From Rhodococcus tukisamuensis NBRC 100609 (GTDB lineage: Bacteria; Actinomycetota; Actinomycetes; Mycobacteriales; Mycobacteriaceae): DNA of 64,000 nucleotides. Each line of letters starts with the position of its first letter. Position 1 is the first letter of the stretch. The notes under the pieces were generated by a model. That model saw only the letters and a program-made list of their open reading frames with translations, did not search any database and was not told where the DNA came from. This document shows, one piece after another, positions 7,622 through 42,762 of this stretch. A program made the position numbers and the translations under genes. The DNA is taken from assembly GCF_001894985.1 (NCBI RefSeq), contig NZ_BCXG01000004.1:124001-188000 (forward strand). Direction: 5' to 3'.

Positions 7622-7638
7622 GCGCGAAATTGTGCCAC

Positions 7639-9928: not shown

Positions 9929-9942
9929 GTCAACCGGGCACA

Positions 9943-9991
9943 GACGCGACGGAGGGCGCGGGTCCAGCAGACCCGCGCCCTCCGTCGCGTC
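9943..9991. terminator. Strong hairpin after the gene at 9509
   Basis: A perfect 22-bp stem (9943-9964 with 9970-9991) closed by the 5-nt loop CAGCA, 14 nt after the stop codon. The arms are very GC-rich (GACGCGACGGAGGGCGCGGG). No U-tract follows, as is common in high-GC Actinobacteria. The hairpin lies between two genes that converge on it, so it could stop transcription from both sides. Its right arm overlaps the first unit of the 51-bp tandem repeat. Confidence 0.8.
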
Positions 9992-13179: not shown

Positions 13180-13817
13180 CCCGGCTCGTCCTCGCCTCGG
13201 CCTCGCCTGCGCGGTTGACAGTGCTGCGCAAGGCGGGGATCGAGCCGTACGTCCACGTCTCGGGCGTCGACGAGGACGCGATCCAAGCCGCGCTCGGTCC
13301 CCGGGCCGCACCGGAGCACGTCGTCACGGAGCTGGCCCGGGCGAAGGCGTCGGCGGTCCTGCCGGACCTCCCCGCCGAGATCGTCGCGGACGCCGTGGTG
13401 ATCGGCTGCGACTCGATGCTGCTGATCGACGACGAACTACAGGGCAAGCCGCACACCGCGGCCGTCGCCCGAGCCCGCTGGCGCTCCATGGCCGGCCGCA
13501 GCGGCACCCTGCTGACCGGGCACTGCGTGCTGCGGGTCCGTGACGGCGCCGTCGTCGACGAGGCCGCCGCGGACAGCGCGACGGTGGTGCACTTCGGGAC
13601 CCCGTCGGGCGACGACCTCGAGGCCTACCTCGATTCCGGCGAACCCATGCAGGTCGCGGGGGCCTTCACCCTCGACGGGCTCGGCGGCTGGTTCATCGAC
13701 CGGATCGAGGGCGACCCGTCCAGCGTGATCGGCATCGGCCTGCCGCTGGTCCGGCGTCTGCTCGGCGACCTGGGCGTCGGTATCTCCGAACTCTGGGCCG
13801 CTACCCCCGCCAGCTGA
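13176..13817 (+). CDS. maf: Maf-family nucleoside triphosphate pyrophosphatase
   Basis: A 213-residue Maf/Ham1-fold protein. The N-terminal signature [19 protein letters not shown], the acidic [17 protein letters not shown], and [33 protein letters not shown] are all present. Maf proteins hydrolyse non-canonical or modified NTPs to NMP and PPi; substrate choice cannot be read here. It overlaps accE5 by 4 nt (GTGA). In M. tuberculosis the next gene is sseA. Here a strong hairpin and then the giant NRPS, on the opposite strand, follow. Confidence 0.92.
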
Positions 13818-13857: not shown

Positions 13858-13905
13858 GAAATCGCCCACCGACAACCGCGATCACGGTTGTCGGTGGGCG
13901 ATTTC
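13858..13905. terminator. Bidirectional hairpin between maf and the NRPS
   Basis: A perfect 21-bp stem (13858-13878 with 13885-13905) and the 6-nt loop CGATCA. Its GC-rich core (CGCCCACCGACAACCG) is flanked by short A/T runs (GAAAT and ATTTC), so it resembles an intrinsic terminator on both strands. It lies between convergent maf and NRPS genes. Confidence 0.85.
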
Positions 13906-13928: not shown

Positions 13929-14735
13929 CTAGCGGGCCCCGTTCCCGTCCGTGTGCTCCTTCAGGACGGGTCCGACGACGCGCAGGGCGGCCGGCGACGT
14001 CATGCCCCAGTGGGTGCTGGCCACGCGATGGTTGCGGACATCGCCACTGACGTACTTCTCCCAGCCCGTCGCCGCGAGTTGTCCCGTCGGATCATCCTCG
14101 CCCGCAGTGAAGAACAGCACCTCGCCGTCGAAGATCTCGGGCCGGTACGCCGCGGTCAGCTCCGAGTTGTGCTCGGCCGCGACGAGGAGCCGGCCGACGA
14201 TCTCGGTGGCGCGTTCCTCGCTCTGCCCGGTCAGCAAGCCGAACATTGCAGCAACCTGGTCCAGGGTCATGTCCGTGACCTGCTGGTCACCGACCCCGTC
14301 CATCCCCATGCCGCTGAGCAGGTCTCCCATCGTCAGCTCGGCACCTCCACCGGTCGCAACGACTGCGGCCTCACTCTCGGCGGTGTAACTGTCGAGCATC
14401 GCCAGCAGTTCCACCGTCTCGCCCTCTTCCTGCAGTTGCACCGCAATGGCGTGGCTGATCACGCCGCCGAGCGACCAGCCGAGCAGGTGGTACGGCCCGG
14501 ACGGCTGCACCCGACGGATCTCGCGGAGGTAGACCTCCGCGACGGCCTCGATCGAACCGGGCAGCTCGCCGTCGCCCAGCACCGCCGGCGTCTGCAGTCC
14601 GTAGATCGGCCGGTCCGCGTCGACATGCTGGGCCAGCCCCGTGTAACACCAGGCCAGTCCGACAATCGGGTGGACACAGAACACCGGCGGCCGTGACCCC
14701 GTCGTGCGGATCGGGAACAGTACCTCGAAGGTCTG
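13929..14735 (-). other. NRPS C-terminal thioesterase domain
   Basis: Residues about 8906-9173. A type I TE of the alpha/beta-hydrolase fold: [27 protein letters not shown], nucleophile elbow [16 protein letters not shown] (Ser8993), LAMLDSYT, and the catalytic-His region [10 protein letters not shown]. It releases the finished peptide by hydrolysis or cyclisation; which one cannot be told. Confidence 0.88.
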
Positions 14736-17700
14736 GTCGGCGTCGGTGTCGCCGCGCTCGATCTGCCGGGCCAGTGCCTCCGGCGTGGGATCGGAGAACA
14801 GCCACGGCATCTGCACGATGGTGTCGAGTTCGGTCCGCAGCCGGCTCACCACACGCATCGCGCTCAGCGAGTTGCCACCGAGGTCGAAGAAGCTGTCGTC
14901 CAGCCCCGCTCGGTCCACCCCGAGCACCTCGACGAACGCCGAGGCGATCGCCAGTTCCGTCGGCGACACCGGTGCGCGGTACTCACGTACCTCCGCCGCC
15001 GGCGCCGGCAAGGCCCGGCGGTCGAGCTTGCCCGACGAGTTGAGCGGGAAGTCGTCGAGCACCAAGATCTGCGACGGCACCATGTACGACGGCAATGCCG
15101 CCCCCACCGCAGACTTCAGCGCGACCGGATCGAGCACCGCCCCCGGCTCCCCGACGACATAGCCGACGAGCATGTCCCCGGCAGTCGCCTGATGCGTTAC
15201 CACGACAGCGGCCCGCGCCACACCGGCCGACCGGGTCAGCGCCGCCTCGATCTCGCCGAGCTCGATGCGCAGTCCACGCAGCTTGACCTGGAAGTCGGTG
15301 CGGCCCAGGAACTCCAACTGACCGTCCCGGTTCCACCGAACTAGGTCACCGGTGCGGTACATCCTGCCGCCACCGGACCCGAACGGATCGGCCACGAAAC
15401 GATCGGCGGTCAGGTCCGGACGGCCCTGATAGCCACGGGCCACCTGGTCGCCGGACAGGTAGAGCTCACCCGGCACGCCCACCGGAACCGGCTTCAGGCG
15501 TGTGTCCAGCACGTACGCACCGGTGTTCCACACCCCACGCCCGATCGGCACCACCGCACCAACCTCGCCTTCGACGCGGTAGGCGGTCGAGGTCACCGTG
15601 ACCTCGGTGGGTCCGTAGGTGTTGTCGAGAACGGCATCGGTCCGGTCGGCGAAGCGCCGGGCCAGGTCGGCCGACAACTCCTCGCCGCCCGCGAGGACGT
15701 ACCGCAGCGACGACGGCAGTTGCAGCGACGGGTCCGCAAGGAAGACGTCGAGCATCGACGGCACGAACTCGGTGACCGTCACCTCCCACTCCTCCAACGT
15801 CGCCGCCAGGTACTCGGGGTCGCGATGGCCGTCCGGCTTCGCCACCACCAGCCGGGCCCCGGCGTGCAGGGGCAGGAACAGTTCCCACACCGACACGTCG
15901 AAGGTGACGGGGGCCTTCTGCAGCACCGTGTCGGACGGGCCGAGCGGATACCGGCCCTGCATCCACGCAATCTGGTTCACGGCCGCGTCGTGACTGACCG
16001 CCACACCCTTCGGCCGTCCCGTCGATCCCGAGGTGAAGATCACGTAGGCCGTGTTCTCGCCCCGCAACGGCGCGCACCGCTCGGTGTCCGCGACCGGAAG
16101 CCCGGAGAAGTCCGAGACGTCCAGTTCGTCGAGGTTCACCGACCGAATGCCCTCCGGGCATTCGAATGCGTCCCGCGCGGTCGACAGCACGATCGTCGCG
16201 CCGGAGGTGCCGAGAATGTACTCGGATCGCTCCATCGGCTGATCCGGGTCCAATGGCACGTAGCCGCCGCCGGCACGGACTATCGCGTACATCCCGATCA
16301 CCATCTCCAACGAGCGGTGCACCGCCAGTCCCACGAGCGACTCGGGCCCCACCCCCTGCGAGATCAGCCAGCGCGCGTGACGGTTGACCGCCGCGTCGAA
16401 CTCCGCATAGGTCAGGTGCCGGCCCTCGAAGACCACCGCCGTCGCGTTGGGAGCGGCGGCGACCTGGGCGTCGAATCCGTCGAGCAGCACGCCGGCCGGC
16501 ATCGGCACCGCGGTCTGGTTCCAGTCCTCGAGCATCGTGCGCCGCTCGTCGTCGTGCAGTAGGTCGACGTCCCCGACGGGCACCGCCTCGGTCGCGACCA
16601 CTGCACGGAGCACACGCTGGAACGACTCCACGAACCTCGTGATCGTCGACTCGTCGAACAGGTCCGTCGAGTACGTCAGGTTGGCGACGATTCCGTCCGG
16701 CCGACGGTTGTCGTCGTACCGGTCGGAAAAGGCGAAGTCGAGGTCGAACTGGGTGACGACCGTGTCGAGTTCGACACCGGAGACACGCAGACCCGCCAAC
16801 TCGAAGTCCGTACGCCCGAGATTCTGGAACGCCATCGACACCTGGAACAGCGGTGAATGCGCCTGGGAACGAACGGGATTCAGCGCATCTACCAGCCGCT
16901 CGAACGGCACGTCCGCGTTCGCGAAGGCCGCCAGATCCGATTCCCGAACCTGCGCGAGCACCTCCGCGAAATCGGCCTCGGGACGAATATCGGTACGCAG
17001 CACCAGGGTGTTGACGAACATGCCGACCACATCGTCGAGCGCCGCCTCACCACGCCCGGCGATCGGAGAGCCGATCACGACATCCCGGGATCCGCTCAGC
17101 CGGCTCAACAACACCGCCAGCGCTGTGTGGACCACCATGAACGGGGTCGCCTGGCGCGCTCTCGCGTACTCGCTCAGCGCCAGGTGCAGGTCCGCCTCGA
17201 TCTCGAAGGTCGTCGCGGCACCCCGGTTCGACGCGATCGCGGGACGCGGCCGATCCGTAGGCAGTTCGATCAGTTCCGGAAGCCCTGACAACGCAGACGT
17301 CCAGTACCCGAGCTGCTTCGAGAGCAACGACTCCGGATCCTCCTCGGACCCGAGCACCTCCCGCTGCCACAGCGCGAAGTCCGCGTACTGCACCGCGAGC
17401 GGTTCCCAGGTGGGCGCTTCCCCGAGACTGCGGGCGGCATAGGCCACCATCACGTCACGAGCCAACGGCCCCACCGACCAGCCGTCTGCACTGATGTGGT
17501 GCACCACGAACACCAAGACGAACTCGTCGTCTCCGACTTCGAACAACGCTCCGCGCAGCGGGACGTCCGACGTCACGTCGAACCCCTGCGAGAGCAGTCC
17601 GACGACTCGCCCAAGCACCTCGCCGGGTGCAACCGGGATCGGCGTCATCGCCGGTACCGCTCGCGTAGCCGGAACGATCACCTGGTACCCGGAACCGTCG

Positions 17701-20700
17701 GCTTCGGGGTACACGGTGCGCAACGACTCGTGCCGTTCGAGCACGTCACCGACCGCGGCCCGCAGCGCCACGACGTCAAGTTCTCCCGAGAGCCTGATCG
17801 CCAACGGAATGTTGTACGCGGGCGACGCCGGATCGAACTGGTTGAGGAACCACATCCGAGACTGAGCCAGCGACAGCGGAATTCGCTCCGGACGTGGCGC
17901 CGCCACCAGCGCCTTCCGCCCACCCGAACCCACATGCCGCTCCACCGCGACGGCGAGCCCAGCGACCATCGAGGCCTCGAACAGCACCCGCACCGGCACC
18001 TGCGTGTCCAGCGCCGCGCCGAGGCGCGAGATCACCTGGGTGGCGATCAGCGAGTTGCCGCCGAGCTCGAAGAAGTCGTCGTCGGCACCGACCCGCTCGA
18101 TCCCGAGCACCTCGGCGAACACGCCCGCCACGATCTCCTCGATCGGCGTCGACGGCGCGCGGAACTCGCGCGCCGCGAACTCCGGCACCGGCAGCGCCCG
18201 CTTGTCCAGCTTTCCGTTGACCGTCACCGGCAGCGCGTCGAGGACCACCACCTGCGCCGGCACCATGTACGCCGGCAACGAACCCGCCAGCTCGTCGCGC
18301 AACACCTGCTGGTCGAGGGCGACCTCCGGGTCGGCGACGACGTAGCCGAGCAACCGCTGCCCGGTGTGCGGGTCCTCGTGCACCGTCACCACGGCCTGCG
18401 CCACGCCGTCGCACCCGGCCAGGGCCGCCTCGATCTCACCGAGTTCGATCCGCAGCCCGCGCAACTTCACCTGCGAGTCGGCGCGGCCCTGGAAGTCCAA
18501 CTGACCGTCGGCGGTCCAGCGCACCAGGTCGCCGGTGGCGTACATCCGGGTCCCGGCCTCGCCGAACGGGTTCGCCACGAACTTGCTCGCGGTGAGCTCC
18601 GCGCGGTCGTGGTAGCCCCGGGCCAGTCCGAGCCCGGACACGTACAGCTCACCCACCACGCCGAGGGGCACCGGCCGCAGCCGCGTGTCGAGCACCATCG
18701 CGCCGACGCCCCCGACCGGCGGACCGATGGTGATCCGGTCACCGACCGAGATCGGCCCGGTCAGGGTGACGACGATCGTGGTCTCCGTCGGTCCGTAGCC
18801 GTTGATGAATCGCCGACCCGGCGCCAAGCGCGCCACCAGCTCCGGCGGGCAGACGTCGCCGCCCACCGCGACCATCTCCAGTGCAGGCAGGTCCTCGGGC
18901 CGAATGGTCCCGAGCGCGGCGGGCGCGCTCATCACGTGGGTGACCGACTCCTCGCGCAACAGCGCCGCGAGCTCGTCGCCGCCCATCACCGCCGGCGGCG
19001 CGACCACCATGGTCGCGCCGGCACTGAACGAGGCGAGCATCTCGAACAGCGACGCGTCGAAGCTGGCGGAAGACAGGCGGAGCACCCGTGACTGCGCGGT
19101 GATCGCCATGTCCGGGTTGGCGTCCGCGGTGAACGGGGCGAGGCCGGTATGGCTCACCGCCACGCCCTTCGGCATGCCGGTGGAACCCGACGTGTAGATC
19201 ATGTACGCCACGTTGTCCGCGGAGAGCGGCGTCGTCCGGTCCCGGTCGGTGACCGGGCCGTCGGACCAGCCCTCGGCCACCTCGCCGTCCAGCTCGACCC
19301 ACTCGGTGATGCCCGGCAGGCCCTCACGGATCCCGGCGACCGTCAGGCCCAGCGCCGCACCGGAATCGGTGAGGATGTGCTCGATCCGCGCGGCCGGCAG
19401 CGCCGGGTCCACCGGCACGAAGGCCGCGCCGGCCTTGGCGACCGCCCACATCGCGACCACTGCCTCGACCGACCGCGGGAACGCCAGCGCCACGAAGGAC
19501 TCCGGGCCGACGCCACGCGAGATCAGCAGCCGCGCCAGGCGGTTCGAGTCGCAGTCGAGCTCGGTGTAGGACACCTGGCGGCCGGACGCGGTCAGCGCGG
19601 CCTTGCCCGGGTCCAGGGCAGCACCGGCAGTGAGGATCTCCGGGAGCAGCCGCACCGGCAGTGGCGTCGCGGTCGCCCGCTCGGCGAGCACGGCGCGTTC
19701 CGCCTCGTCGAGCAGGTCGAGTTCGCCGACCGGCAGGGCCGGGTCGGCGGCAACGGCCCCGAGCAGCCGCACCAGTCGCGCGACGAATCCGCGCACCGTC
19801 GACTCGTCGAACAGGTCCGCCGCGTAGGTCACCGAACCCATCAGTCCGTCCTCGGAGTCCCGGAAGGTCAGCTCCAGGTCCAGCTTCGCGACCGCGATCT
19901 CCGCGTCGAGCGCGGACACCTCGATGCCCGGCAGCTCGAACGACGTCGCCCCCAGGTTCTGCAGCGCCAGCGCCACCTGGAACAGCGGCGAATGTGCCTG
20001 CGACCGAGGCGGGTTCACCACCTCGACGACCCGCTCGAACGGCACCTCGGCATTGCCGAACGCGGCCAGGTCCACCGCGCGGGCCTGCGCCAGCAACTCC
20101 GTGAATCCGAGCGTCGGGTCCACCTCGGTGCGCAGCACCAGCGTGTTGACGAACATGCCGACCAGGTCGTCGAGTGCAGCCTCGCCGCGACCGGCGATCG
20201 CGGTGCCGACGGTGATGTCCGTCGACCCGCTGAGCCGAGACAGCGTCGCCGCCAGCGCGGCGTGCAGGACCATGAACAGGGTGGACTGCTCGGCCAGCGC
20301 GAGCTCCCGCAGGCGACCGGCCAGTTCGGCGTCGACGCCGAACTCGGTGCGCGCCCCGCGCATCGACATCACCGGCGGGCGCGGACGGTCTGTCGGCAAC
20401 TCCAGCATTGCCGGCACGCCCGCCAACTGCTCACCCCAGTAGCCGAGCTGAACCGCGGCCAGCGACTCCGGGTCGTCCTCCGACCCGAGCACCTCTCGCT
20501 GCCACAGCGCGAAGTCCGCGTACTGCACCTCGAGCGGCTCCCACGTCGGCGCCAGCCCCCCGGCGCGGGTGGCGTAGGCGACCATCACGTCGCGCGCCAA
20601 CGGCGCCAGGGAGAAGCCGTCCGCACTGATGTGGTGCACCACGACCGCGAAGACGTGCTCCGCAGTGCCGGTCTTGAACAGCCTGGCACGCAACGGAATC

Positions 20701-23700
20701 TCCGTCGAGACGTCGAATCCGCGGGACACGAAGTCGAACAGCGAGGCCGTCAGCACATCCTCGGACACCTCCGTCTCGTCGAGGTCCGCCTCGATCTCGC
20801 CGACACCGACCACCACCTGGGAGGGACCGGCCGCCGAGTTCGGGAACACGGTGCGCAACGACTCGTGCCGTGCCAGCACGTCCCCGACGGCCGCTCGCAG
20901 CGCCGCCACGTCGAGTTCCCCGGTCAGCCGGATCGCCAGCGGGATGTTGTAGGCCGGCGAGCTGGTGTCGAACTGGTTGACGAACCACATCCGGGACTGC
21001 GCGAGCGAGAGCGGGATCCGCTCCGGCCGCGGACCAGCCACCAGCGCGACCCGTCCGCCGCCGCCGACGTGCCGCTCCGCCGCGACCGCGAGCCCGGCGA
21101 CCGTCGAGGCCTCGAACAGCACCCGCACCGGCACCTGCGTGTCCAACGCGGCACCGAGCCGCGAGATCACCTGGGTGGCGATGAGCGAGTTGCCGCCGAG
21201 CGCGAAGAAGTCGTCGTCGGCGCCGACCCGCTCGACCCCGAGCACGTCCGCGAACACGCCGGCCACGATCTCCTCGATCGGCGTCGACGGCGCCCGGAAC
21301 GCGACGGCCTCGAAGGCCGGCACCGGCAGGGCCTTGCGGTCGAGCTTGCCGTTGACCGTCACCGGCAGCGCGTCGAGGACCACCACCTGCGCGGGCACCA
21401 TGTACGCCGGCATCGATGCCGACAGCTCGCTGCGCAGCTTCTGCGGGTCGAGCGCGACCTCCGGGTCGGCGACGACGTAGCCGAGCAACCGCTGCCCGGT
21501 GTGCGGGTCCTCGTGCACCGTCACCACGGCCTGCGCCACGCCGTCGCAGGCGAGGAACGCCGACTCGATCTCGCCGAGTTCGATTCGCAGTCCGCGCAGC
21601 TTGACCTGTGAGTCGGCGCGGCCGACGAAGTCCAGGTCACCGTTCGCCGTCCAGCGCACCAGGTCGCCGGTGAGGTACATCCGGGTCCCGGCCTCGCCGA
21701 ACGGGTTGGCCACGAAGCGGGCCGACGTGAGGTCGGTACGGTCGTGGTAGCCGCGGGCCAGACCGGCACCTGACAGGTACAGCTCGCCCACCACGCCGAT
21801 CGGCACCGGCCGCAGCCGCGCGTCGAGCACGACTGCGCCGACGCCGCCGATCGGTGCGCCGATGGTGATCCGGTCACCGGCGGCCAGCGACGCGGTCCGG
21901 GTGACGACGATGGTGGTCTCGGTGGGGCCGTAACCGTTGAAGAACCGCCGACCGGGTGCGAGCCTGGCCACCAGTTCCGGCGGGCAGACGTCGCCGCCGA
22001 CGCCCACCACCTCGAGATCGGGCAGGTCCTCGGCGCGCATGGTCCCCATCGCCGCGGGCGCGCTCATCAGGTGGCTCACCCGCTGATCGCGCACCAGTCC
22101 CGCGAGTTCGTCACCGCCGACGACCTCCGGCGGCGCCACCACCATGGTCGCGCCGGTGCTGAAGGACGTCAGCATCTCGAACATCGAGGCGTCGAAGCTG
22201 GCCGAGGCCAGTCGAAGCACACGTGATGTGGCGGTGATGACCATTTCGGGGTGGGCGTCCGCGGAGAACGCGGACAGCCCGGTGTGGGTGACCACCACGC
22301 CCTTGGGCATGCCGGTCGAGCCCGAGGTGTAGATCATGTACGCGACGTTGGTGGCGGACAGCGGCGCCGTCCGGTCCCGGTCGGTGACCGGTGCGTCGGA
22401 CAGACCCTCGGCCAGGGCGGCGTCGAGTTCGAGCCACTCGGTGGTGCCCGGCATGTCCTCGTGGACCCCGGCGAGCGTCAGGCCGAGCGCCGCACCGGAG
22501 TCGGTGAGGATGTGCTCGATCCGCGCGATCGGCAGCGCCGGGTCCACCGGCACGAACGCGGCCCCACTCTTGGCGACCGCCCACATCGCGACGACCGATT
22601 CGAGGCTCCGCGGGAACGCCAGCGCCACGAAGGTCTCGGGTCCCATTCCTCGCGAGATCAGCAGCCGCGCAATCCGGTTCGACGTCGCGTCGAGCTCCGC
22701 GTAGGTCATCTCGGCGCCGGATCCGATCAGCGCGACCTTCTCCGGGTCCAGTGCCGCACCGGTGGCGAGCATCTCCGGCAGCAGCCGCGCCGGCAGCGGT
22801 CGCGCGAGCGCCCGCTGCGCCAGGGTCGCCCGCTCGCTCTCGTCGAGCAGGTCCAGCTCGCCGACCACCACGGCCGGCTCGGCCACGACCGAGCCCAGCA
22901 GCCGCACCAGGCGCTCGACGAAGGTCCGCGCCGTGGACTCGTCGAACAGGTCCGCGGCGTACGTCAGCGAACCGGCCAGGCCGTCCGCGCTCTCCCGGAA
23001 CGTCAGCTCGAGGTCCATCTTCGCGACCGAGGCGTCCGCCTCGAGCGCCGACACCTCGATGCCCGGCAGCTCGAACGAGGCCAACCCCTGGTTCTGCAGC
23101 GACAGGGCCACCTGGGCCAGCGGCGCGTGCGCCTGCGAACGCGGCGGGTTCACCACCTCCACGACCCGCTCGAACGGCACGTCGGCGTGACCGAACGCCG
23201 CCAGGTCCACCGCGCGGGTCTGCGCCAGCAACTCGGTGAAGGTCAGGGTCGGGTCCACCTGGGTGCGCAGCACCAGGGTGTTGACGAACATGCCGACCAC
23301 GTCGTCGAGTGCGGCCTCGCCGCGACCGGCGATCGGGCTGCCGACGGTGATGTCGGTGGATCCGCTCAACCGGGCCAGCTGCACCGTCAGCGCCGCGTGC
23401 AGCACCATGAACAGCGTGGACTGACGCCCCCGAGCCAGGTCCGTCAACTGCTCCAGCAGCTCCGCGTCGATCGTGAAGTCGGTGCGCGCGCCGCGCATCG
23501 ACGCCAGCTGCGGGCGCGGGCGGTCCGTCGGCAGCTCCAGCAGCGCGGGTGCCCCGGAGAGCTGCTCGACCCAGTAGCCGAGCTGGACCGCTGCCAGCGA
23601 CTCCGGGTCGTCCTCCGACCCGAGCACCTCGTGCTGCCACAGGGCGAAGTCCGCGTACTGCACCTCGAGTGGCGCCCACGTCGGGGCCTGCCCCTCGGCG

Positions 23701-29700: not shown

Positions 29701-32700
29701 ACCATGAACAGGGTCGAGCGGTGCTCGAGCGCGAGACCGTTGAGTCGCTCGGTCAGTTCCGCACCGACCACGAAGTCGACGCGGCCGCCGCGGTAGGACG
29801 CGACCGCCGGCCGGGACCGGTCTGTGGGCAGTTCCAGCACGCCCGGGACGCCGGCCAGCCGCTCCGCCCAGTAGGCCAGCTGGACCGACGCCAGCGATTC
29901 CGGGTCGTCCTCGGACCCGAGCACCTCACGCTGCCACAGCGCGTAGTCCGCGTACTGCACCGCCAGCGGCGCCCAGTCCGGGCACTCGCCACGAGTCCGG
30001 GCCTCGTAGGCGGTGAACACATCGCGGGCCAGCGGCAGGGTCGAGAAGCCGTCTGCGCTGATGTGGTGAACCACCAGCACCAGCACGTGCTCGCTCGCGT
30101 CGAGGCGGAACATGCCGCCGCGCAGGGGGATGGCGGCGGTCACGTCGAAGCCGCCGGAGACAAGACCGAAGATCGCGGTCCGCAACTCGTCCTCACCGTC
30201 GACATCGACCGGGGTGAGGTCCAGCGCCACCTCGGTGCCGGCCAGGATTCGTTGCTGCGGACCCTGATCGGAGTCCGGGAAGAGGGTGCGTAGGGACTCG
30301 TGCCGGTCGATGACGTCGCGCACGGCGGCCGCGAGCGCGGCGGCGTCCAGGGCGCCGGTCAGCCTGACCGCGAGTGGGATGTTGTACACCGCGGACGCGG
30401 AATCGAATCGGTTGAGGAACCACATCCGCTGCTGGGCCAGTGAGAGCGGGATCCGCTCGGGCCGCTCCCCCGCGACCAGCGGGATCCGGTCCGCGGCCTC
30501 GTGGGTGTCCACCAGGGTCGCCAGGCCCGCCACGGTCGAGTTGCCGAAGACCTCCCGAACCCGCAGATCGGTGCCCGCGGTGGCGTTGACCCGGGCCACC
30601 ACCTGGGTCGCGCTGAGCGAGTTGCCGCCCAGCGCGAAGAAGTCGTCGTCCGCACCGACCCGCTCGGTCCCGAGTACCTCGGCGAAGATGTCGGCAACCA
30701 CCTGTTCGGTGGCCGTCCGCGGCGGCAGGTACTCGCGCACCTCGAACACCGGCGCCGGCAAAGCCTTCCGGTCCAGCTTGCCACCCGGCGTCAGCGGCAC
30801 CGTCTCGAGCACCGTCACCGACGCCGGCACCATGTACTCCGGCAACCGATCCCGCACGAAGGCGGTCAGCGCGGCGGTGTCCACCTCGACACCCGCCCGC
30901 GGCAGCACGTACGCGACCAGCGACCGGCCACCGGCCGGGCCGTCGAATCCGACCGTCGCCGCGAAGTCGACATCCGCATGGGCGGACAGCACCGCGTCGA
31001 TCTCACCCAACTCGATCCGGTGGCCGCGGATCTTCACCTGGGCATCGGTCCGTCCGAGGTACTCGAGAGTCCCCTCCCGCGTCCAGCGCACCAGGTCACC
31101 GGTCCGGTACAGCCGCGAACCGGCCGCTCCGAACGGGTTCGCCACGAACCGCTCCGCCGTCAACGACAGGCGGGCATGGTAGCCACGCGCCAACCCGGCG
31201 CCCGACAGGTACAGCTCACCCGCGACACCGACCGGCACCGGATGCAACCGGGCATCGAGCACCACGACGTCGGTCCCGACGACCGGGCCACCCAGCGTCA
31301 CCGGAGCGCCGGGCACCATCGGATCCGAGTGGGCCGCAACCACTGTCGACTCGGTCGGCCCGTACGCGTTGAACATCCGGCGTCCCGGCGCCCACCGCTC
31401 CACCAACGACGTCTCGCAGGCGTCGCCGCCGACGACGACCACCTCGAGCAGGTCGAGGCCCGCCGGGTCCACCGTCGCCAGGGCCGCCGGCGTCACGAAC
31501 GCATGCGTCACGCGTTCCGCGCGCAACAGCCCGGCGAGGGTGTCGCCGCCGTAGACCTGCGTCGGCGCCACCACCATCGTGGCCGCGCCGCCGACCGCCA
31601 TCATCAGTTCCAGGATCGACGCGTCGAAGCTCGGCGACGCGAAGTGCAGTGTCCGAGAGTCGCTGCGAACCCCGTACCGGGCGCGCTGGTCACTCGCGAA
31701 CGCACCCAGACCGGCGTGCGTGACCACCACGCCCTTCGGGACGCCCGTCGACCCCGACGTGTAGATCACGTAGGCCGGACTCTCCGGACGCACCACACCG
31801 GACAGCTCGCCGTCGGTGATCGTCGCCGAACTCCTGGCCGCGACTCGCTCCGCGTCGACCGCGTCGTCGAGCATCAGCCACCGGACCGACTCGCCGAGCG
31901 CGCCTCGGCTCCGTTCCACCGTGAGACCGATCGCCGCACCGGAATCGGAGAGCATGTGCTCGATCCGCTCGGCCGGATAGGTCGGATCCACCGGCAGGAA
32001 TGCCGCACCCGTCTTGGCGACCGCCCACACCGCCGTGACGGATTCGACCGACCGCTCCAGGGCCACCGCCACACACGACTCCGGTGCCGCTCCCCTGGCG
32101 ATCAACTCACGCGCGACCCGGTTCGAGCGGGCATCCAACTCGGCGTAGGACAGAACTGTCCCCTCGAACGACAGCGCGTCCCCGGCCGGATTCGCCGACA
32201 CGGCCTGCGCCAGCAACGATGCCAGGGTCGGACCGACCGGCTCGGGCCGTGACGGCGCCGCACCCAATTCCCGCAACGACATTCGCTCGGCCGCGTCGAG
32301 GATCTCGATGTCGCCGACCGGGACCGCGGGCGTGCGCACCGCGGCGGTGAGGATCCGCAGGAAGCGCGTGGCGAACTCGACCACGGTTGCCTCGTCGAAC
32401 AGGTCACTCGCATAGACGAACTCGGCTGCGGCACCCTCGCCGTCCACCAGCTCGCCGACCGTCAGCTGAAGGTCGAACTTCGCGACCCCGAAGTCGAGGG
32501 GTTCGCGGTGGATCTGCAGACCGGGCAGGGCAAAGCCGTCGACCTGCAGGTCCTCAAACGCCAGGACCACCTGGAACAGTGGGTGGTACGCCGTGGATCG
32601 GGCCGGGGCCACCACCTCGACCAGGCGCTCGAACGGCACGTCCGCCTGCCCGAACGCGGCGAGGTCGACGTCCCGAATGTCGCGGAGCAGTTCGTCGAAG

Positions 32701-35700
32701 GTCAGCGCGCCGGCGACGTCCGAGCGCAGCACCAGCGTGTTGACGAACATGCCCACCACGTCGTCGAGCGCGGACTCACCGCGGCCGGCGACCGGGGTAC
32801 CGATCGCGATGTCGGTGGACTCGCTCAGCCTGGCCAGCAGCACCGCGAGCGCGGCGTGCAGCACCATGAACGGCGTCGCGTTCGCACGGCGGGCCAGCTC
32901 CCGGACGCCGTGGTAGACGTCGGCGTCGATGCTGAACGGCACTCCGGCGCCGCGATAGGTCGGGGACGTGGGACGCCGGTGGTCGTGCGGCAGCGCGAGC
33001 AGGTCCGGCAGTCCGGCCAACTGCTGCGACCAGTACCCGAGCTGGCGTGCAGCCAGAGACTGCGGGTCCGATTCCGACCCGAGGATCTCCTGCTTCCACA
33101 GCGCGTAGTCAGCGTACTGCACCGGCAACGGCTCCCATCCGGGCGCCGTGCCGTGTGCGCGAGCGCTGAACGCGGACATGACATCACGTGCCAACGCCTG
33201 CATCGACCAGCCGTCGATGCTGATGTGGTGCACCACCATCGACAGGACGTGCTCGCCGGGGGCCACCCGGAACAGGCGCAGCCGGATCGGCAACTCGGTG
33301 GTGACGTCGAACCCGCCCGCCACCTCCGCGCGCAGGCGGTCCGCCAGGTCGGCCGACGCCACCACGGCGACCGGCAGGCCGACCACGACGTCGCCCGCCG
33401 CCAGGATCTGCTGGCTGGGGCCGTCGACCGAGTCCGGGTAACGGGTGCGCAGGGACTCGTGCCGGCCCGTGACGTCGGCGACCGCGTCCTGCAGCGCGTC
33501 GATGTCGAGCGTGCCGCTCAGTCGCAGTGCCACGGCGACGTTGTAGGCACCGGAGCTGGTGTCGAACTGGTTGAGGAACCACATCCGGGACTGCGCCGGC
33601 GAGAGCGGGATCCGGTCGGGACGGACCGCCGGTACCAGCGGCCGTCGCACACCGGTGCCGTTGGCGTCGTCGAGCCGGGCGGCGAGCGCCCCGACAGTGG
33701 GTGCCTCGAACAGGTCTCGGACGCTCACCCGCACGCCGAGTTCGGCGTCGAGCCGGGCGAGCAGTCGGGTGGCGAGTAACGAGTTGCCGCCGAGGTCGAA
33801 GAAGTTGTCCGATGTACCGACCCGGTCCGCGCCCAGCAGCTCGGCACAGACCCCCGCGACCACGACTTCGGTGGCGGTGACGGGGGCGGCGAACTCCGCG
33901 CCGGCGAACTCGGGTTCGGGCAGAGCCTTCCGGTCGAGCTTGCCGTTGGCATTCAGCGGAAGCGCGTCGAGCACGACCACTACCGAGGGCACCATGTACG
34001 CCGGCAGGTCGCGCCCCAGGGAGTCGAGCAGCGCCGCACGGTCGATCTCCGCACCGACCGCCGGCACCACGTAGCCGGCGAGGTACTCACCACGGGCTCC
34101 CCCGCGCAGCAGCACCGCGGCCTGGGCGACCGAGTCGTCACGCGTGAGCGCCGACTCGATCTCGCCCAGCTCGATTCGCTGGCCACGCAGCTTCACCTGG
34201 AAGTCGGTGCGCCCCAGGTATTCCAGTTCACCCTGTGCGTTCCACCGCGCCAGGTCGCCGGTCCGGTACATCCGCGCGCCGGGGCGGCCGAACGGGTCGG
34301 GCACGAATCGGTCCGCCGTCAGGTCCGGCCGCTGGACGTACCCGCGCGCCAACTGGACGCCCGCGAGATAAAGCTCTCCCGCGGCGCCGACCGGGAGTGG
34401 ACGCAGCCTGGCGTCCAGCACGTAGGTCTGGGTGTTCCACACCGGCGCACCGATCGGGACAACCGTCTCCGCACGGTGCGTCTCGTGGAAAGTGACGTCG
34501 ACCGACGCCTCGGTCGGGCCGTACAGGTTATGCAGCCGTGCCCGACTGCGCCGGTGGAACTCGGCGACTGCACTGGCCGGCAGCGCCTCGCCGCTGGCGA
34601 ACACATGGCGCAGGGACTCGCACCGGGACAGGTCGGCGTCGGCGAGGAACAGCTCGAGCATCGACGGCACGAAGTGCAGCGTCGTGATCCGCTGGTCGTG
34701 GATCACCGCCTCGAGGTACCGCGGGTCGCGGTGGCCGTCGGGTTCGGCGATGACCATTCGTGCGCCGGTCTGCAACGGCCAGAACAGTTCCCACACGGAC
34801 ACGTCGAAGGTGACCGGGGTCTTCTGCAGTACCGCGTCCTCGCCGCCGAGCGGGTACCTGCTCTGCATCCACAGCAACCGGTTGACGATGCCGGAGTGCG
34901 GCACCGCGACGCCCTTGGGCCGCCCGGTCGAGCCGGACGTGTAGATCACGTACGCCGTGTTGTGGTCGCGCAACGGCGCCCGCTCCGACGCCGTCAGCGG
35001 CGCATCGTCGAGGCCGGACAGGTCCAGGGTGTCCACCGCCACAGTCGCCGCGGCGTCGGCCATGCCGGCGGCGTCTGCCGAGGTGGTCAGTACCAGCACC
35101 GGCCGGGCCTGGGACAGAACGTATCCCGTCCGCTCGGCGGGCTGGTCGGGGTCGATCGGCACGTACGCGCCGCCCGCGGCGAGGACCGCGTAGATGCTGA
35201 CCATCAGGTCGACGGAACGTCGCATCGACACCGCGACCATCGACTCGGGTCTCACTCCGGCGGCGAGCAGGTGCCGTGCCATGCGATTGACTCGTCGGTC
35301 GAGTTCGAGGTACGAAACGCACTCGTCGCCGGCGACCAGCGCGACCGCGTCCGGGGTCGCGGCAACCTGCTCGACGAACAGGTCGACCAGGGTGGCCGGG
35401 GCCACCGGGTGGTCGGTGTCGTTCCACTCCGAGACCACCAGGTCTCGCTCACCCGGGGTGAGGATGTCGATCTCCGCGATCGCGAGGTCGGGCTGCGCCG
35501 CCATGGTGTCCAGGATGCGGATCAGGCGGGAGGACAACAGCGTCACGGCGGCGCGGTCGAAGGACTGCGGCGCGAACCGCAGGCTCAGGCGCAGCCGTGG
35601 GTCGAGGATCGACATCAGGGTCAGCGGGAAGTGCGTCGCGTCATGCGCGTCGAGGTCGAGCACCCGCATCCCACCGATGTCGGTGTTCTCGTCGAACCCG

Positions 35701-38700
35701 GACTTGTCGACGGGGTACGACTCGAACACCGTCAGGGTGTCGAAGAGCTCCCCCACCCCGACGGCGGCCTGGATGTCGCCGAGACCGACGTGGTGGTGGT
35801 CGAGCAGGTCTGCCTGGTCGCCCTGCAGCCGGGAGAGGAACGCCGTGACCGACTCGTCCGGGTCGATGCGGACGCGGACGGGCACGGTGTTGATGAACAG
35901 GCCCAGCATCGACTCGACGCCTGCCAGCTGCGGCGGGCGTCCGGACACGGTGGCGCCGAAGGTGACGTCTTCGCGGGAGAGCAACCGGGCCAGCAGCAGA
36001 CCCCACGCCGCCTGGATCACCGTGTTCACGGTGATCCCGTGCTCGCGGGCCATCCGGCCGATCCCGTCCTCCAGCCCGGCGGGCAGGTCGACGGTCAACT
36101 CCTCGGGCAGCGGGCCGTGCTCCCCCGGCACCCGGGCGGGCGCGAGCAGGGTCGGCTCGGCGACGCCGTCGAGGGCCCGCGCCCAGGCGGCGTGCGCGGC
36201 GTCGGCGTCGGACTCGCCCAGCCAGGCCAGGTACTCGCGGTAGGAGCGTGGCCGGGCCAGCCCGACGACGTCGGCACCGGCGGCGTAGGAGACCAGCAGT
36301 TCGCGGACCAGCAGCGGCATCGACCAGCCGTCGAGCACGATGTGGTGGTTGGTGACGGCGAGCGTGTAACGCTCAGGTGCCGTGTGGACCAGAAGGATCC
36401 GCAGCAGCGGCGGCGCGGCCATGTCGAACCGCTCGGTGCGCTCGTCGTCGAGCAGCTTCTGCAGGCGCACCTCCCGCTCGTGCTCCGGCAGCGCCCGGAC
36501 GTCGACCTCGCGCCACGGCACGTCGACGTGCTCGAGCACGATCTGCACCGCGGTGCCGTCCTCGGCGTACCCGAACGCGGTGCGGAGGTTTTCGTGGCGG
36601 CGCACCAGATCCGCCACGGCAGAACGCAACCGGCTCGAGTCGACGACGCCGGCCAGGCTCAGCCGCAGCTGCGCGGTGTAGACGTCGACCGTCTGCTCCG
36701 ACAGCTCGGCGTGGAAGAGCAGGCCGCGCTGCAGCGGCGAGAGCGGCCACACGTCGGACAGCAGCGGGTAGCTGCGCTCCCACCGGTCGAGCTCGTGCTG
36801 GCGCACCCGGACCAGCGGCAGGTCCGAGGGGGTGAGTCCACCGGCGCCGGGCTGCTCGGCGTGCGAGGCAAACGCCAGGAGCGCGCATCGCCACAGGCTG
36901 GCGAGCTCGCCGACGTCCTCGGCGGTGAGCAGGCCTGTCGGGAATGCGAAGGTGGCCGACAGGCGCGGCCCGTCGAGCTCGTCGTCGACCACGGCGTTCA
37001 CGTCCACCGCCGCGGCGACGGTCATGCCGGGTCCGCTGGTGGCGTTGAGGTCCGGTGCGTCCGTGTCCGGGATCCAGCCGAGGCCGCGCAGCGCCTCGGG
37101 CACCTGCGCCGCACCGGTGCGGCCGAGGTAGTTGAAGCTGACCTGTGGCTGGCCCAGGGACGCGAGCACCGGAGCGGTCTCCTCGTCGAGGTACCGCAGC
37201 ACACCGAATCCGACACCGCGGTTCGGCACCTCGTGCAGCTGCTCCTTGACCGCCTTCATCACGGCGGCGGCCGCGTGACCGCCGACCATGGCGTCGTCGA
37301 GGTCCACCGCGCCCAGGTCCAGCCGCACCGGGAACATGCTGGTGAACCAGCCCACGGTGCGGGACAACTCGGCACCCGCGACGGCGGCGTCCTCGCGGCC
37401 GTGGCCCTCGAGCGTGAGCAGGACGCCCGACGACGAGTCGAGCCCGCGGTCCCGGCGCCACACCGACACCGCCACCGAGAGGGCCGCGACGAGCCCCTCG
37501 CTGACACCGCATCGGAACGCGCCGGGCAGACTGGTCAGCAGGGCCTCGGTGACGTCAGTGGGCAACTCCACCCGCACCCGGTCCGTGGTGGCCACCGTGT
37601 CGAGCTCCGGGTCGAGGGCGCGGGACCCGAGCGTCGGGTCCGGACCGGCGAGAACTCCTGTCCAGTAGTCCATCTCGCCGGCAAAGGTCTGCTCCGCGGC
37701 CGAGTCGATCACGCCGTGGGCCCAGCGCCGCAGCGAGGTGCCGACCGGCGCGAGCGCCACCTCGGCGCCCGCCGCGGCCTGCATCGCGGCCTGCGCGAAG
37801 TCCGGGACGATGGTGCGCCAGGACACCCCGTCGACGACGAGGTGGTGGGCGACGATCAGCAGCCGGCCCGCGACCTCGGTGCCATCGGATTCCGGTGCCA
37901 GCCAGACGAACTGGAGCATGACCCCGTCGGCCGGGTCCAGCCGGCCGGCGGCGGCGTCGCACTCGGCGAGCAGCGCGGCGGCGAACGCGTCGCTGCCGGG
38001 GGCCGCGTCGACGGTGACCCTGCGCAGCAGGCGGGCCGGGTCGATCGAGTCGGCCCGGGTCTCGAAACCCCAGCCGTCGGTGGTGGGGAGGAACCGGCTG
38101 CGTAGTGCATCGTGGCGGTCCGTCACTGCCGCGACCGCCGCGGTCAGCGACGCGTACTCGACACCGTCGGGCAGCGTCAGCGCGATCGCCTGGAAGAACC
38201 GGTCCGGGCCGCCGCGGGCGAGCATCGAGTGCACGATCGGCGTCAGCGGCACCGTGCCGATTCCCGCGCCGTCGAGTTCCACGAGTGCCGCGGACTCCGA
38301 GTCCTCCGCCTGCACCGCGACCCTGGCGATCTCGGCAATGGTCTTGCGCTCGAAGACGTCCCGCGCCGAGAAGCGCAGTCCACGCTCCTTGGCCCGCGCG
38401 ACGAGCTGGATCGCGATGATGCTGTCTCCGCCGACGGCAAAGAAGGACTCGTCGACGCTGACCCGGTGCGCTCCGAGCAGGTCCGCGACCACCTCCGCGA
38501 TCACCTTCTCCGCGTCGGTGACCGGCTCGCGGTACTCCGCGGTGGCCGCACCGAACACCGGGATCGGCAGGGCGCGGCGATCCAACTTGCCCGCGGTGGT
38601 CAACGGGACGCTGTCGATCACCATCACCACGGACGGCAGCATGTGGCCGGGCAGGAACTCGCCTGCCCGGGCGATGACCTCCGTCGGGTCCACGGCGTGG

Positions 38701-41450
38701 CCCGAGCGGGCCCGGACGTAGGACACCAGCGCGATCGCACCGTTGCTGCGCTCGTGCGCGATGGTGACGGCGAAGTCGATGCCGTCCTGCGAGGTCAACG
38801 CGGCGTCGATCTCGCCGAGCTCGATCCGGAACCCGCGGATCTTGACCTGATGGTCCGCACGGCCGACGAACATCAGCTCGTGGTCGTTCGTCCACCGGAC
38901 CTCGTCGCCGGTCCGGTACATCCGGGAACCCGGCTCCTCGAAGGGGTTCGCGACGAACCGGTCGGAGGTCAGACCCCGCCGGTCGTGGTACCCGCGGGCG
39001 AGCGCCGGGCCGGCCAGGTACAGCTCACCGACGGCCCCCACCGGCACCGGACGCAGCCGGCGGTCGAGCACCAGGGCACTCGCACCCTGGATCGGGGCGC
39101 CGATGGTGATCCGGTCGTCCACCGCGAGCGGGTGCCCGGTCGTGATGACGATCGTCGTCTCGGTCGGCCCGTAGCTGTTGGTGAAGCTGCAGACGTCGGC
39201 GAACTTCTCGACGAGGTCCGGCGTGCAGACGTCGCCACCGACGACCACCGCCTGCAGGTCCTCCAGACCCTTCGGGTCGACCGACCCGAGCACTGTCGGC
39301 GCCGAGATGATGTGGGTGACCCGCTGCGACCGCAGCAGGTCCACGAGGTCGTCGCCGCCGTAGACCTCCGGCGGGGCCACCACCATCGTGGCGCCCGCGC
39401 TGAAGGCCTGCACCATCTCGAAGACCGAGGCGTCGAAGCTGGCGGAGGAGAAGCGCAGCACCCGGGACTCGGACGTGATGTCCAACTCCGGCCGCGCCGC
39501 GGCCGCGAAGTTGACCAAGCCGGCGTGGGTGACCACCACGCCCTTCGGCAGACCCGTCGATCCCGAGGTGTAGATGACGAACGCCGGGTTGGCGACGCAG
39601 AGGGCGTGACGCCGGTCCGCGTCGGTGATCGGATCCGTCGACAGCGCCGAGTACCGGGCGATCGTCTCCGCGTCGTCCGTGGTCAGCCAGTCGACCGAGG
39701 ACGGCAACGCGCCGCACAGCGCCGCCGTGGTCAGCCCGACCAGGACGCCGGAGTCGGTGACCATGTGCATCTTGCGGTCCGCGGGCAGCTCCGGGTCGAT
39801 GGGCAGGAATGCCGCGCCGGACTTCGCCACCGCCCAGACGGCGACGAGCGCCTCGACCGACCGGGAAAAGGAGAGCGCCACGAACGACTCGGGGCCGACG
39901 CCCCGGTCGACGAGCAGTCGTGCGAGCTGGTTGGACCGGGCGTCGAGTTCCCGGTAGCTGACCCGCGCGTCGCCGGCGAGGATCGCGATTCCGTCCGGGT
40001 TCGCCGCGGCGCCGTCCCCGAGCAGGTCCGGCAGCAGTCGCGGGGCGGATGCGGCGGGCCCACGCAGCGGCACCAACTCGGCGCGTTCGTCGTCGTGGAG
40101 GACGTCCAGCCCGGACACCCGCGCCGCGCCGTCAGCCGCGGCGAACTGGGTGAGGTACTCGAGGAACCGGGCGTGGTGGCCCTGCAGGTCCTCGGCGGTG
40201 TACAGGTTCGGGTTCGCCTCGAAGTCGAGGTGCGGACGGCTTCCGGCGACGCTCGGGTAGATGTTGACGGACAGGTCCTCCACCGGACCGGTGGTCAGCA
40301 CCCGCATCCGACCCGTCAGGTCGCCGAAGCGAATCTCGCTGTGGAACATCATGATGTTGATCGCCGGCCCGAAGAGACCACGCTGCCCGGCGCCGGAGCC
40401 GAGCCCGCGACGCATGTCCTCGTGGCGGTAGCGCTGGTGGCGCAGCGCCCCGGTCAGTTCCAGCTGCACCGCGGCGACGAGCTCCGAGACCGTCGTCTCG
40501 TGGCCGACCTGGACCCGGAGCGGGATCACGTTGGACACCATGCCGCCGGACCGCCGCATCTGCGCGGTGGTCCGCGCCGACACCGGCAGGCTCAACGCGA
40601 CGTCGCTCTCACCGGTGAGCCGGGAGAGGAAGGCCGCCACCGCGGCGATGGCGATCGGCGTGAACGCCGACTCGTTGGCCTCGATCGCGGCCTCGGTGGC
40701 CTCCGCCAGCGGCCCTCCCGCCACCAGCGAGAACGGACCGACCGCCGCGGTACTGGCGGCGAGGCTGATCGGCTCGGGCAGCTCGCGGGTCCGCTCCGCC
40801 CAGTACTCGCGGTCCTTGGCGAACCGGGCGGACTCCCGGTAGCGGGTCTCGTCCTCGCAGATCTCCCGGACGGGACTGGCCTTGTGGTCGGCGGCGGCCC
40901 TGCCCTCGACCGCCGCCGTGTACAGCTCGGCCACGCGGTTCATGTACGTCATCGCGCCGAACCCGTCGAGCGCGATGTGGTGGATGCGGGCGTACCAGTA
41001 GTAGCGGTCCTCCCCGATCCGCAGCACCGCGGACTCGATCAACCGGTCCGTCACGAGGTCGATCGGGGCGCTGTACTCGGCGCGCATCCAGTCCTCGGCT
41101 GCCCCGGCCGGGTCCGTCGCGGAACGCAGGTCGACGATCTTCATCTGGTCGTTGAGCGTCTCGTCGATGACCTGCGCGGGCTCACCGTCGTGCTCGACGA
41201 TCCGGAGCATCCCGGTGCCCAGCTCACGCGAGGCGAGCGCTCCCGCCGCCTGCATCGCATCCATGTCGAGGTCGCCGACCACGTCGACGCACTGGGCAAT
41301 GGTGATCGGCACATCCGGCAGCAGGTGCTGCGCGAACCAGATCCCGCGCTGCGCGGCCGAGAGTGGGAACGCATCCACACCACCGTTCGCATCCGTCTGC
41401 GGAGAGTTGAGGATGTCGGACTCGCGGACGGAGTCACGTGCAGGAACCAC
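13929..41450 (-). CDS. Giant eight-module non-ribosomal peptide synthetase
   Basis: A single 9,173-residue NRPS. Domain order: C(starter)-A-T-E, then C-A-T seven times, then thioesterase (TE). All C and E domains keep HHxxxDG (first His near 157, 1702, 2741, 3795, 4840, 5894, 6939, 7984 for C; 1202 for E). All eight carrier serines are present (1010, 2557, 3611, 4656, 5710, 6755, 7800, 8861). TE has GWSLGG with Ser8993. By the colinearity rule it makes an octapeptide, N-capped by the starter C domain, with a D-residue at position 1 and Ser at position 2. It starts at GTG 41450, with GAGAGG eight bases upstream. It separates maf from sseA, which are adjacent in M. tuberculosis. No MbtH-like, PPTase, exporter or regulator gene flanks it. 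Product unknown. Confidence 0.96.
14736..17930 (-). other. NRPS module 8: C-A-T (approximate limits)
   Basis: Residues about 7841-8905. The A domain is of the FDVSVWELF type, like the serine module, but its code reads DVWELGTVTK; substrate not assigned. It follows the same [22 protein letters not shown] core and shares [10 protein letters not shown] with module 2. The carrier serine is 8861. Confidence 0.75.
17931..21065 (-). other. NRPS module 7: C-A-T (approximate limits)
   Basis: Residues about 6796-7840. The A-domain code reads DAFMAGGIVK, one residue away from modules 4 and 6, so the same or a similar amino acid is likely. The linker [15 protein letters not shown] recurs in modules 6 and 7. 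The carrier serine is 7800. Confidence 0.75.
21066..24200 (-). other. NRPS module 6: C-A-T (approximate limits)
   Basis: Residues about 5751-6795. The A-domain code reads DAFMGGGIVK, the same as module 4. C6 and C7 share long near-identical stretches, for example [17 protein letters not shown] and GPSQVVVG. The carrier serine is 6755. Confidence 0.75.
24201..27365 (-). other. NRPS module 5: C-A-T with a divergent A domain (approximate limits)
   Basis: Residues about 4696-5750. The A domain stands apart: its P-loop region is [20 protein letters not shown] instead of YTSGSTGxPKGVxVTH, and the pocket motif is SFDLTQKNV instead of SFDASxFEM. The code reads DLKNFGSDVK; substrate not assigned, but it is more polar than its neighbours. 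C and T domains resemble those of the other modules. The carrier serine is 5710. Confidence 0.75.
27366..30500 (-). other. NRPS module 4: C-A-T (approximate limits)
   Basis: Residues about 3651-4695. The A-domain code reads DAFMGGGIVK, identical to module 6 and one residue different from module 7; substrate not assigned. The surrounding sequence ([31 protein letters not shown]) is almost identical in all three. The carrier serine is 4656. Confidence 0.75.
30501..33665 (-). other. NRPS module 3: C-A-T (approximate limits)
   Basis: Residues about 2596-3650. The C domain begins [17 protein letters not shown]. The A-domain code reads DALFVGAVVK, which differs at two positions from a tyrosine code I remember (DALVTGAVVK), so an aromatic residue is a tentative guess. 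The carrier serine is 3611. Confidence 0.75.
33666..36815 (-). other. NRPS module 2: C-A(Ser)-T (approximate limits)
   Basis: Residues about 1546-2595. The C domain ([26 protein letters not shown]) looks like the D-donor-accepting class, as expected after an epimerase. The A-domain code is DVWHFSLVDK, identical to the serine code of EntF, so serine is predicted with good confidence. The carrier serine is 2557. Confidence 0.88.
36816..41450 (-). other. NRPS module 1: starter C-A-T-E (approximate limits)
   Basis: Residues about 1-1545. The C domain ([29 protein letters not shown]) resembles the EntF-like starter class that accepts an acyl or aryl group. The A domain code as I read it is DAFIVGSIVK: hydrophobic, not assigned. 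The carrier motif GGDSI (Ser1010) is the form usual before epimerases. The E domain has [19 protein letters not shown] and VSFNYLGR. It should load and epimerise the first residue after N-acylation. Confidence 0.82.
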
Positions 41451-41859: not shown

Positions 41860-42762
41860 GTGCCCGTAGCCGCCGATTCCCATGCAGCCTTCGCGGCCTA
41901 TGCCCACCCCGAACGGCTGGTTACCGCGGACTGGCTCGCCGGCCACATCGGGGCACCCGGCCTCAAGATCGTCGAGTCCGACGAGGACGTGTTGCTCTAC
42001 GACGTCGGACACATCCCGGGCGCGGTGAAGATCGACTGGCACCTGGACCTCAACGACCCGGTCACCCGCGACTACATCGACGGCACGGCCTTCGCAAAGC
42101 TGATGAGCAGCAAGGGAATCCGCCGAGACGACACCGTCGTCATCTACGGCGACAAGAGCAACTGGTGGGCCGCCTACGCACTGTGGGTGTTCACCCTGTT
42201 CGGCCACGAGGACGTGCGCCTGCTCGACGGCGGCCGCGACGCGTGGATCGCCGAGAACCGCGACACCACCCTCGACGTTCCCGAGAACCAGCCCACCGAC
42301 TACCCGGTGGTCGAGCGGGACGACGCGTCGATCCGCGCCTTCAAGAACGACGTCCTCGGCCACCTCGGCCAGGGTCCGCTGATCGACGTGCGTTCTCCCC
42401 AGGAGTACACCGGCGAGCGCACCCACATGCCGGACTACCCGGAAGAGGGCGCGCTGCGCGGCGGGCACATCCCCACCGCGGTGTCGATCCCGTGGGCCAA
42501 GGCGGCGGCCCCCGACAGCCGGTTCCGCAGTCGACCGGAGCTCGAGGAGATCTACGCCGACTTCGCCACCACCGACAACGTGGTCGCGTACTGCCGGATC
42601 GGCGAGCGGTCGAGCCACACCTGGTTCGTGCTCACCCACCTCCTCGGGTTCGAGAAGGTACGCAACTACGACGGCTCCTGGACCGAGTGGGGCAACGCGG
42701 TGCGGGTCCCCATCGTCAAGGGCGAGGCACCCGGCGTGGTGACCGAGATCGGGGCGTCGTGA
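41860..42762 (+). CDS. sseA: Thiosulfate/3-mercaptopyruvate sulfurtransferase (rhodanese)
   Basis: Two-domain rhodanese of 300 residues. The N-terminal inactive domain has [20 protein letters not shown] and [14 protein letters not shown]. The C-terminal catalytic domain has [13 protein letters not shown] and the active loop [14 protein letters not shown] with Cys245. It transfers sulfane sulfur from thiosulfate to an acceptor. The GTG at 41860 has CAGGAG at the right distance. The SufE-like gene overlaps its stop codon by 4 nt, so sulfur hand-over between the two is likely. It matches Rv3283. Confidence 0.93.

Follow-up and report, generated by a model that had tools for sequence, protein, structure and literature searches.

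A single-gene octamodular peptide synthetase of Rhodococcus tukisamuensis and its orthologues between maf and sseA

The DNA considered here (the window) is a stretch of 64,000 nucleotides from R. tukisamuensis NBRC 100609, positions 124,001 to 188,000 of contig NZ_BCXG01000004.1; all coordinates are those of the window. It carries a nonribosomal peptide synthetase (NRPS) gene at 13929..41450 on the minus strand, which probably encodes a one-protein, collinear lipopeptide synthetase, the product of which, judged from its sequence, would be an N-acylated octapeptide. Orthologues occupy the same site in three other Rhodococcus species. It is this orthologue series, and not the size of the gene, that merits follow-up.

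Domain architecture and predicted peptide

The open reading frame starts with GTG, encodes 9,173 residues and has no internal stops. Motif and Pfam scans give the domain order C-A-T-E, seven times C-A-T, and TE (condensation, adenylation, carrier, epimerization and thioesterase domains). The initial annotation had described this arrangement as a single uninterrupted frame of 27.5 kb, and its coordinates, length and domain order proved to be exact. Module 1 (38370..41450) comprises a starter-type C domain (C1, HHIALDG), A1 and T1. It is followed by E (HHLVVDG) and then C2, A2 and T2 of module 2 (together 33729..38369), by the C-A-T modules 3 (30567..33728), 4 (27432..30566), 5 (24270..27431), 6 (21135..24269), 7 (18000..21134) and 8 (14817..17999), and by a type I thioesterase (GWSLGG, 13932..14816), all on the minus strand. 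These assignments were made from motifs, with alignment to the orthologues for modules 7 and 8.

Scanned with Pfam as two in-frame pieces of 4,919 and 4,254 residues, the protein gave 6 + 4 Condensation, 4 + 4 AMP-binding, 3 + 4 AMP-binding_C and 4 + 4 PP-binding matches and one Thioesterase. The cut at residue 4919, which falls within C5 (HH at 4840), best accounts for the tenth Condensation stretch. The motif HHxxxDG occurs nine times, once for each of the nine C and E domains, the carrier motif GGxS and the lysine motif GK[LV]D eight times each, and the TE motif GWSLGG once. The Ser, Asp and His of the TE line up with those of solved TE domains, and with the repeating C-A-T units and their motifs this places the protein among the type I modular NRPSs.

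Nine pocket positions were read by motif from each A domain, giving the codes DAFIVGSIV (A1), DVWHFSLVD (A2), DALFVGAVV (A3), DAFMGGGIV (A4 and A6), DLKNFGSDV (A5), DAFMAGGIV (A7) and DVWELGTVT (A8). From a resemblance that we assume to Leu and Val codes, A1, A3, A4, A6 and A7 are presumably hydrophobic, and residues 1, 3, 4, 6 and 7 of the peptide would probably be so too. Position 299, at which variation is reported (PMC12283262), is the only one that separates the A2 code from the Ser codes DVWHLSLVDK and DVWHMSLVDK. The code DLKNFGSDVK, equal to that of A5, was called homoserine (Hse) by antiSMASH 4.1.0 (PMC7524897), and DLKNVGSDVK, which is seen in A2 of all three orthologues, is listed as Hse (PMC12283262). 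The predicted product therefore likely has Ser at residue 2, Hse at residue 5 and the D configuration at residue 1.

The first condensation domain was compared with solved chains. The best match to C1 is RzmA-Cs (249 bits), followed by CDA-Cs (197), EntF (196), ObiF1 (181) and VibH (80), with others lower. C4 reverses this ranking: RzmA-Cs scores 61 bits, whereas its five best chains score 382 and 325-329 bits, which places C4 with the elongation C domains. When C2 was submitted together with the last part of E, the matching chains were those of bacitracin synthase 3, PvdL, McyB, surfactin and tyrocidine synthase 2, DCL domains among them, as expected for a domain that follows an E domain. C1 thus falls in the starter subfamily by its ranking among chains of the Protein Data Bank, with EntF close behind CDA-Cs. 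The structure entries for RzmA, CDA, VibH and EntF are named in PMC7804268, which reports that RzmA-Cs condenses acyl-CoA with aminoacyl thioesters in vitro, its authors not excluding acyl-ACP in cells. The starter domain of RzmA, the rhizomide synthetase, is the closest solved relative of C1, a comparison that covers the first domain only.

A scheme for the synthesis can be proposed on this basis. The starter C would N-acylate residue 1, most likely with an acyl group that primary metabolism supplies as acyl-CoA or acyl-ACP; because its nearest relatives suggest such donors, no dedicated loading genes would be needed. Residue 1 would be converted to the D form by the adjacent E domain and passed on through C2, and six further C-A-T modules would extend the chain to the octapeptide acyl-D-X1-Ser2-X3-X4-Hse5-X6-X7-X8, which the TE would release by hydrolysis or by ring closure on a Ser or Hse hydroxyl. 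A phosphopantetheinyl transferase (PPTase) and, if needed, an MbtH protein would act in trans. The genome has two MbtH genes, on contigs C2 and C16, and two PPTase-family genes, on C5 and C8, with none of either on C4, the contig of the window. The lack of local partners is thus better explained by a starter domain able to draw on the acyl-CoA or acyl-ACP of the cell, together with MbtH and PPTase-family genes located elsewhere in the assembly.

Several observations weigh against this interpretation. The exact A2 string DVWHFSLVD is absent from the passages cited of PMC12283262, and the likely assignment of A5 to homoserine is itself drawn from published code predictions. The five distinct codes of six of the eight A domains found no match in 5.39 million papers, one of them having been searched only as a whole; the code search returned two papers, both for Hse codes, and six code stems are absent from the same passages of PMC12283262. 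One of the two PPTase-family genes may be the AcpS of fatty-acid synthesis. No sigma-70-like promoter was found upstream of the gene, in what is a weak test. Conservation is lower in module 8 and in the TE, where windows of 40 residues show 52-95% identity, than in modules 1 and 3. Finally, the score of C1 to EntF is almost equal to that to CDA-Cs.

This last point leads to the strongest alternative, which we nevertheless consider improbable. The EntF C domain accepts an aryl acid, and an EntF-type C1 could take 2,3-dihydroxybenzoyl or salicyl from an aryl carrier protein acting in trans, to give an aryl-capped, siderophore-like peptide. The scores to EntF and ObiF1 agree with this, as does the MxcG model, for which module 1 is the top stretch of the first NRPS piece. 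However, RzmA-Cs is clearly ahead for C1, Pfam showed no aryl-acid gene in the 30 neighbouring frames (the only part of the genome searched for such genes), and none of the eight A domains carries a code that we would take for the N-hydroxyornithine type. An N-acylated lipopeptide is therefore still preferred.

Known products of the genus were also considered. The humimycin A and B NRPSs (IupU of R. equi, and R. erythropolis) likewise have a starter C and a predicted N-acyl peptide (PMC5550956, PMC12024397). Humimycins, however, are heptapeptides (PMC12024397), whereas eight modules are present here, although the R. oryzae orthologue has seven. The humimycin clusters are described as holding amidohydrolase, N-acyltransferase and MbtH genes (PMC5550956), while no amidohydrolase or MbtH gene was found in the 30 neighbouring frames. 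The humimycin synthetase is thus set apart on its published description and not by comparison of sequences. The 911-Da inhibitor of strain MTM3W5.2, a close relative of R. maanshanensis, was rejected as a product, since according to the passages cited of PMC6310278 it requires a type I polyketide synthase and its mass predicts no nitrogen.

Integrity of the gene and its neighbours

A decaying or mis-assembled relic without a product is very unlikely. It would fit the less conserved 3' end of the gene and the fact that no dedicated local regulator, exporter or MbtH was recognised near it. Against it stand the 9,173 codons free of stops, the retained motifs and the equally open orthologous frames in three other assemblies (9,151, 8,103 and 9,182 residues), which share the N-terminus VV(P/T)ARD with the gene described here. 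The ratio of nonsynonymous to synonymous substitution (dN/dS) against the three orthologues is well below 1 in the three pieces tested, at 0.16-0.20 for modules 1 and 3 and 0.32-0.35 for the TE, in keeping with the earlier statement that all catalytic residues are present and that the gene looks functional. The GC content by codon position (0.73/0.48/0.91) is similar to that of neighbouring genes. The initial annotation had also named frameshifts in the assembly of such a repetitive gene as something that would undo it; because the three orthologues are open and the gene has no exact internal repeat of 100 bp or more, an artefact of frameshift or repeat collapse is unlikely.

Around the NRPS, 27 genes were called by codon bias and all were scanned with Pfam, together with three further frames. 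Helper genes had been thought absent for at least 13 kb on either side, and for MbtH and PPTase this is right, but regulators, a transporter and a condensation-fold protein do lie nearby. An AI-2E-family transporter is found at 5 kb, a two-component pair at 7-9 kb, a FemAB/GNAT protein at 7 kb, an AsnC regulator at 10 kb and a TetR gene at 12.7 kb, with a flavin monooxygenase at 54020-55843, all within 13 kb. The two-component pair is also present in the corresponding stretch of genome G005, and the transporter in those of G003 and G005, two genomes that lack the NRPS at this site. The FemAB/GNAT protein (48394-49461) was rejected as a conserved partner, having no match at E 1e-5 in the orthologue stretches, nor in five stretches without the NRPS. 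The TetR, AsnC and monooxygenase genes are found alongside the orthologues in some or all cases; the NRPS-free stretches are too short for a comparison of these three.

The stand-alone condensation-fold protein of 474 residues (43348..44772, plus strand, identified by Pfam) is presumably PapA-like. A dedicated role in acylating or releasing the peptide can practically be dismissed for it. Although 1.9 kb separate it from the start of the NRPS and it stands beside the NRPS in R. maanshanensis and R. oryzae as well, its gene also sits between sseA and accA3 in G003, G005, G010, G014 and G027, none of which has the NRPS between maf and sseA, and R. spelaei carries the NRPS yet has only a 28% match to the protein, located elsewhere.

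The maf-sseA site and the orthologue series

The NRPS lies between maf (13176..13817, plus strand, Pfam Maf) and an sseA-like rhodanese gene (41860..42762, plus strand, from Pfam and synteny in relatives), in a gene order that we take to resemble the mycobacterial accD5-maf-sseA-accA3. Between the convergent NRPS and maf genes is a 22-pair hairpin (13858..13905, -49 kcal/mol, z -7.7), likely a terminator. The hairpin is recognisable in R. maanshanensis and R. oryzae, and R. spelaei, judged by eye, has a different one there.

A pattern-based scan of 84,980 species, with one genome per species and the capacity to miss loci, returned eight loci, three of which are the orthologues in R. maanshanensis (G001), R. 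oryzae (G002) and R. spelaei (G004). In these three genomes, as in R. tukisamuensis, the NRPS fills the gap between maf and sseA. Where it is lacking, maf adjoins sseA, at a spacing (from tblastn ends) of 118 bp in G003, 186 bp in G005, 110 bp in G010 and 529 bp in G014. The gap of G027 measures 5,449 bp and is filled by other genes; here (G027:C6, L051, ~5589-11037) two further condensation-fold matches and a frame resembling a membrane transporter were seen, so that the gap has taken other cargo. The search for copies of the NRPS elsewhere covered two of these five genomes, and the best match to the DNA of module 1 was 67% in G003 and 66% in G005, against 85-86% in the orthologues, so neither has a close copy. 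In a tree of rpoB-region DNA from eight genomes, the four carriers are grouped (100/99) and G003 and G005 fall outside; being based on one locus, the tree is weak for the branching order within the four. Most likely the gene entered this site only once, in a common ancestor of the four sister species that carry it. This is the simplest reading because two genomes of other genera also have the short gap; loss is a possible alternative.

The initial annotation proposed looking for the same domain order in other rhodococcal and nocardial genomes. Eight modules are indeed present in R. maanshanensis and R. spelaei, but R. oryzae has seven. The first six modules of R. oryzae correspond to modules 1-6 of the present gene (71-91%) and its last one to module 8 (61%), so module 7 is the one missing.

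The clearest difference in sequence is in module 2. Its overall identity to the orthologues is 70-71%, but over residues ~1988-2387 (34290..35489, minus strand), the core of A2, it drops to 10-70% between flanks that are mostly 65-100% identical. Identity climbs again near YRTGD (residue 2395), and the code switches between Hse type in the three orthologues and Ser type here. The edges given for this and the following segments come from identity windows of 20-40 residues. A sharp drop inside the A core with conserved flanks is the pattern of natural A-core exchange. The A core is the commonest natural exchange unit, and the C-A linker is usually kept (PMC8097286). The proposed exchange covers the A core but not A-sub or T, as in most published cases (PMC8097286, PMC7486941); in contrast to most of those in PMC8097286, its left edge reaches the C-A linker.

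Judged from the alignments, A2 is the only orthologue difference of this plain A-core type. In module 4 of R. spelaei the C domain is 75-83% identical to the other C4 domains, while A is of Hse type and 78% identical to A5 here, and the difference continues through A-sub. Module 5 of R. spelaei differs throughout, with C5 at 58-59% and a Ser-type A that is 73% identical to A2 here. Module 8 here is 30-70% identical to the three orthologues over C8 and the N-terminal part of A8 (~7908-8477) and 43-70% after residue 8747, and between these, at residues 8478-8747, which hold the pocket, it is 63-93% identical, with the same code in all four. The module 8 differences could reflect an exchange or an old divergent version. 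The published exchanges differ from the present case, which concerns one gene at one fixed Rhodococcus site, and in which the changes in modules 4-5 of R. spelaei and in module 8 here are wider than the A core.

No direct donor for the A2 core or the module 8 segment was found among the matches listed in six genomes of the genus. Among these matches, the best to the A2 core outside the gene itself are A5 of R. spelaei (72%) and a paralogue in R. maanshanensis (70%), and the best to the module 8 segment is 61%. The paralogous NRPS of R. maanshanensis (G001:C25:56449-60924; L009, L034) has 73% DNA identity in its first-module region, and one of its A cores shows 70% identity to the Ser-type A2 core of the present gene.

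The gene among rhodococcal NRPSs

The initial annotation treated an NRPS of this size in one gene as exceptional, a view that does not hold. The A2 core was used to search the six genomes, and frames with NRPS-type matches were measured from stop to stop rather than as annotated genes. At least four more single frames of this type occur in the R. tukisamuensis genome itself (8,989, 8,949, 8,946 and 8,826 residues), with smaller ones of 6,461, 5,657 and 5,622 among the matches listed. The matches listed from sister species reach 14,589, 14,568, 14,485, 10,976, 9,876 and 9,536 residues, and another genus of the family has a single frame of 15,769. In a survey of 28 strains, most rhodococcal NRPSs start with a starter C and 69 of 79 NRPS families have lipopeptide hallmarks; such C-starter NRPSs are frequent, mostly without a known product, and clade-specific in distribution (PMC5550956). 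The NRPS is thus ordinary in kind for Rhodococcus. It shares with these families the N-terminal starter C, the mostly unknown products and the clade-specific distribution, and differs in that it was not matched to any numbered family of the survey, the cited passages of which are silent on the R. maanshanensis group. No paper on this gene was found among the matches listed for literature on the three named species and on Hse lipopeptides in Rhodococcus.

A second single-gene NRPS was seen in R. tukisamuensis (5,622 residues, G000:C1:150000-189999, L035-L036) and in G003 (7,169 residues, G003:C7:365000-436000, L029-L032). Its flanking frames partly match in size and strand, possibly marking a second fixed site with a differing number of modules.

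After its entry, the gene would have diversified as A-domain segments, and larger ones, were exchanged and a module was lost. In the order R. tukisamuensis, R. maanshanensis, R. oryzae and R. spelaei, the hydroxyl residue predicted at position 2 is Ser, Hse, Hse and Hse, and that at position 5 is Hse, Hse, Hse and Ser. We tentatively suggest, while regarding it as rather less than an even chance, that nature has produced a combinatorial series at the maf-sseA site, in which a single-gene NRPS entered once, stayed, and was re-edited between sister species. The edits would be an A-core exchange at position 2, wider replacements in modules 4-5 and 8, and the loss of module 7, with the hydroxyls at positions 2 and 5 and the last code kept.

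Four syntenic orthologues that differ by the loss of one module and a handful of clear segment exchanges amount to a small natural experiment in how NRPSs evolve, and the gene is also a compact target for product discovery, being a single gene with no partner genes to assemble. Should the peptides prove to be a matched set, they would serve to test two ideas: that these hydroxyls are retained because ring closure or target binding needs them, and that the acceptor residue is gated by C domains.

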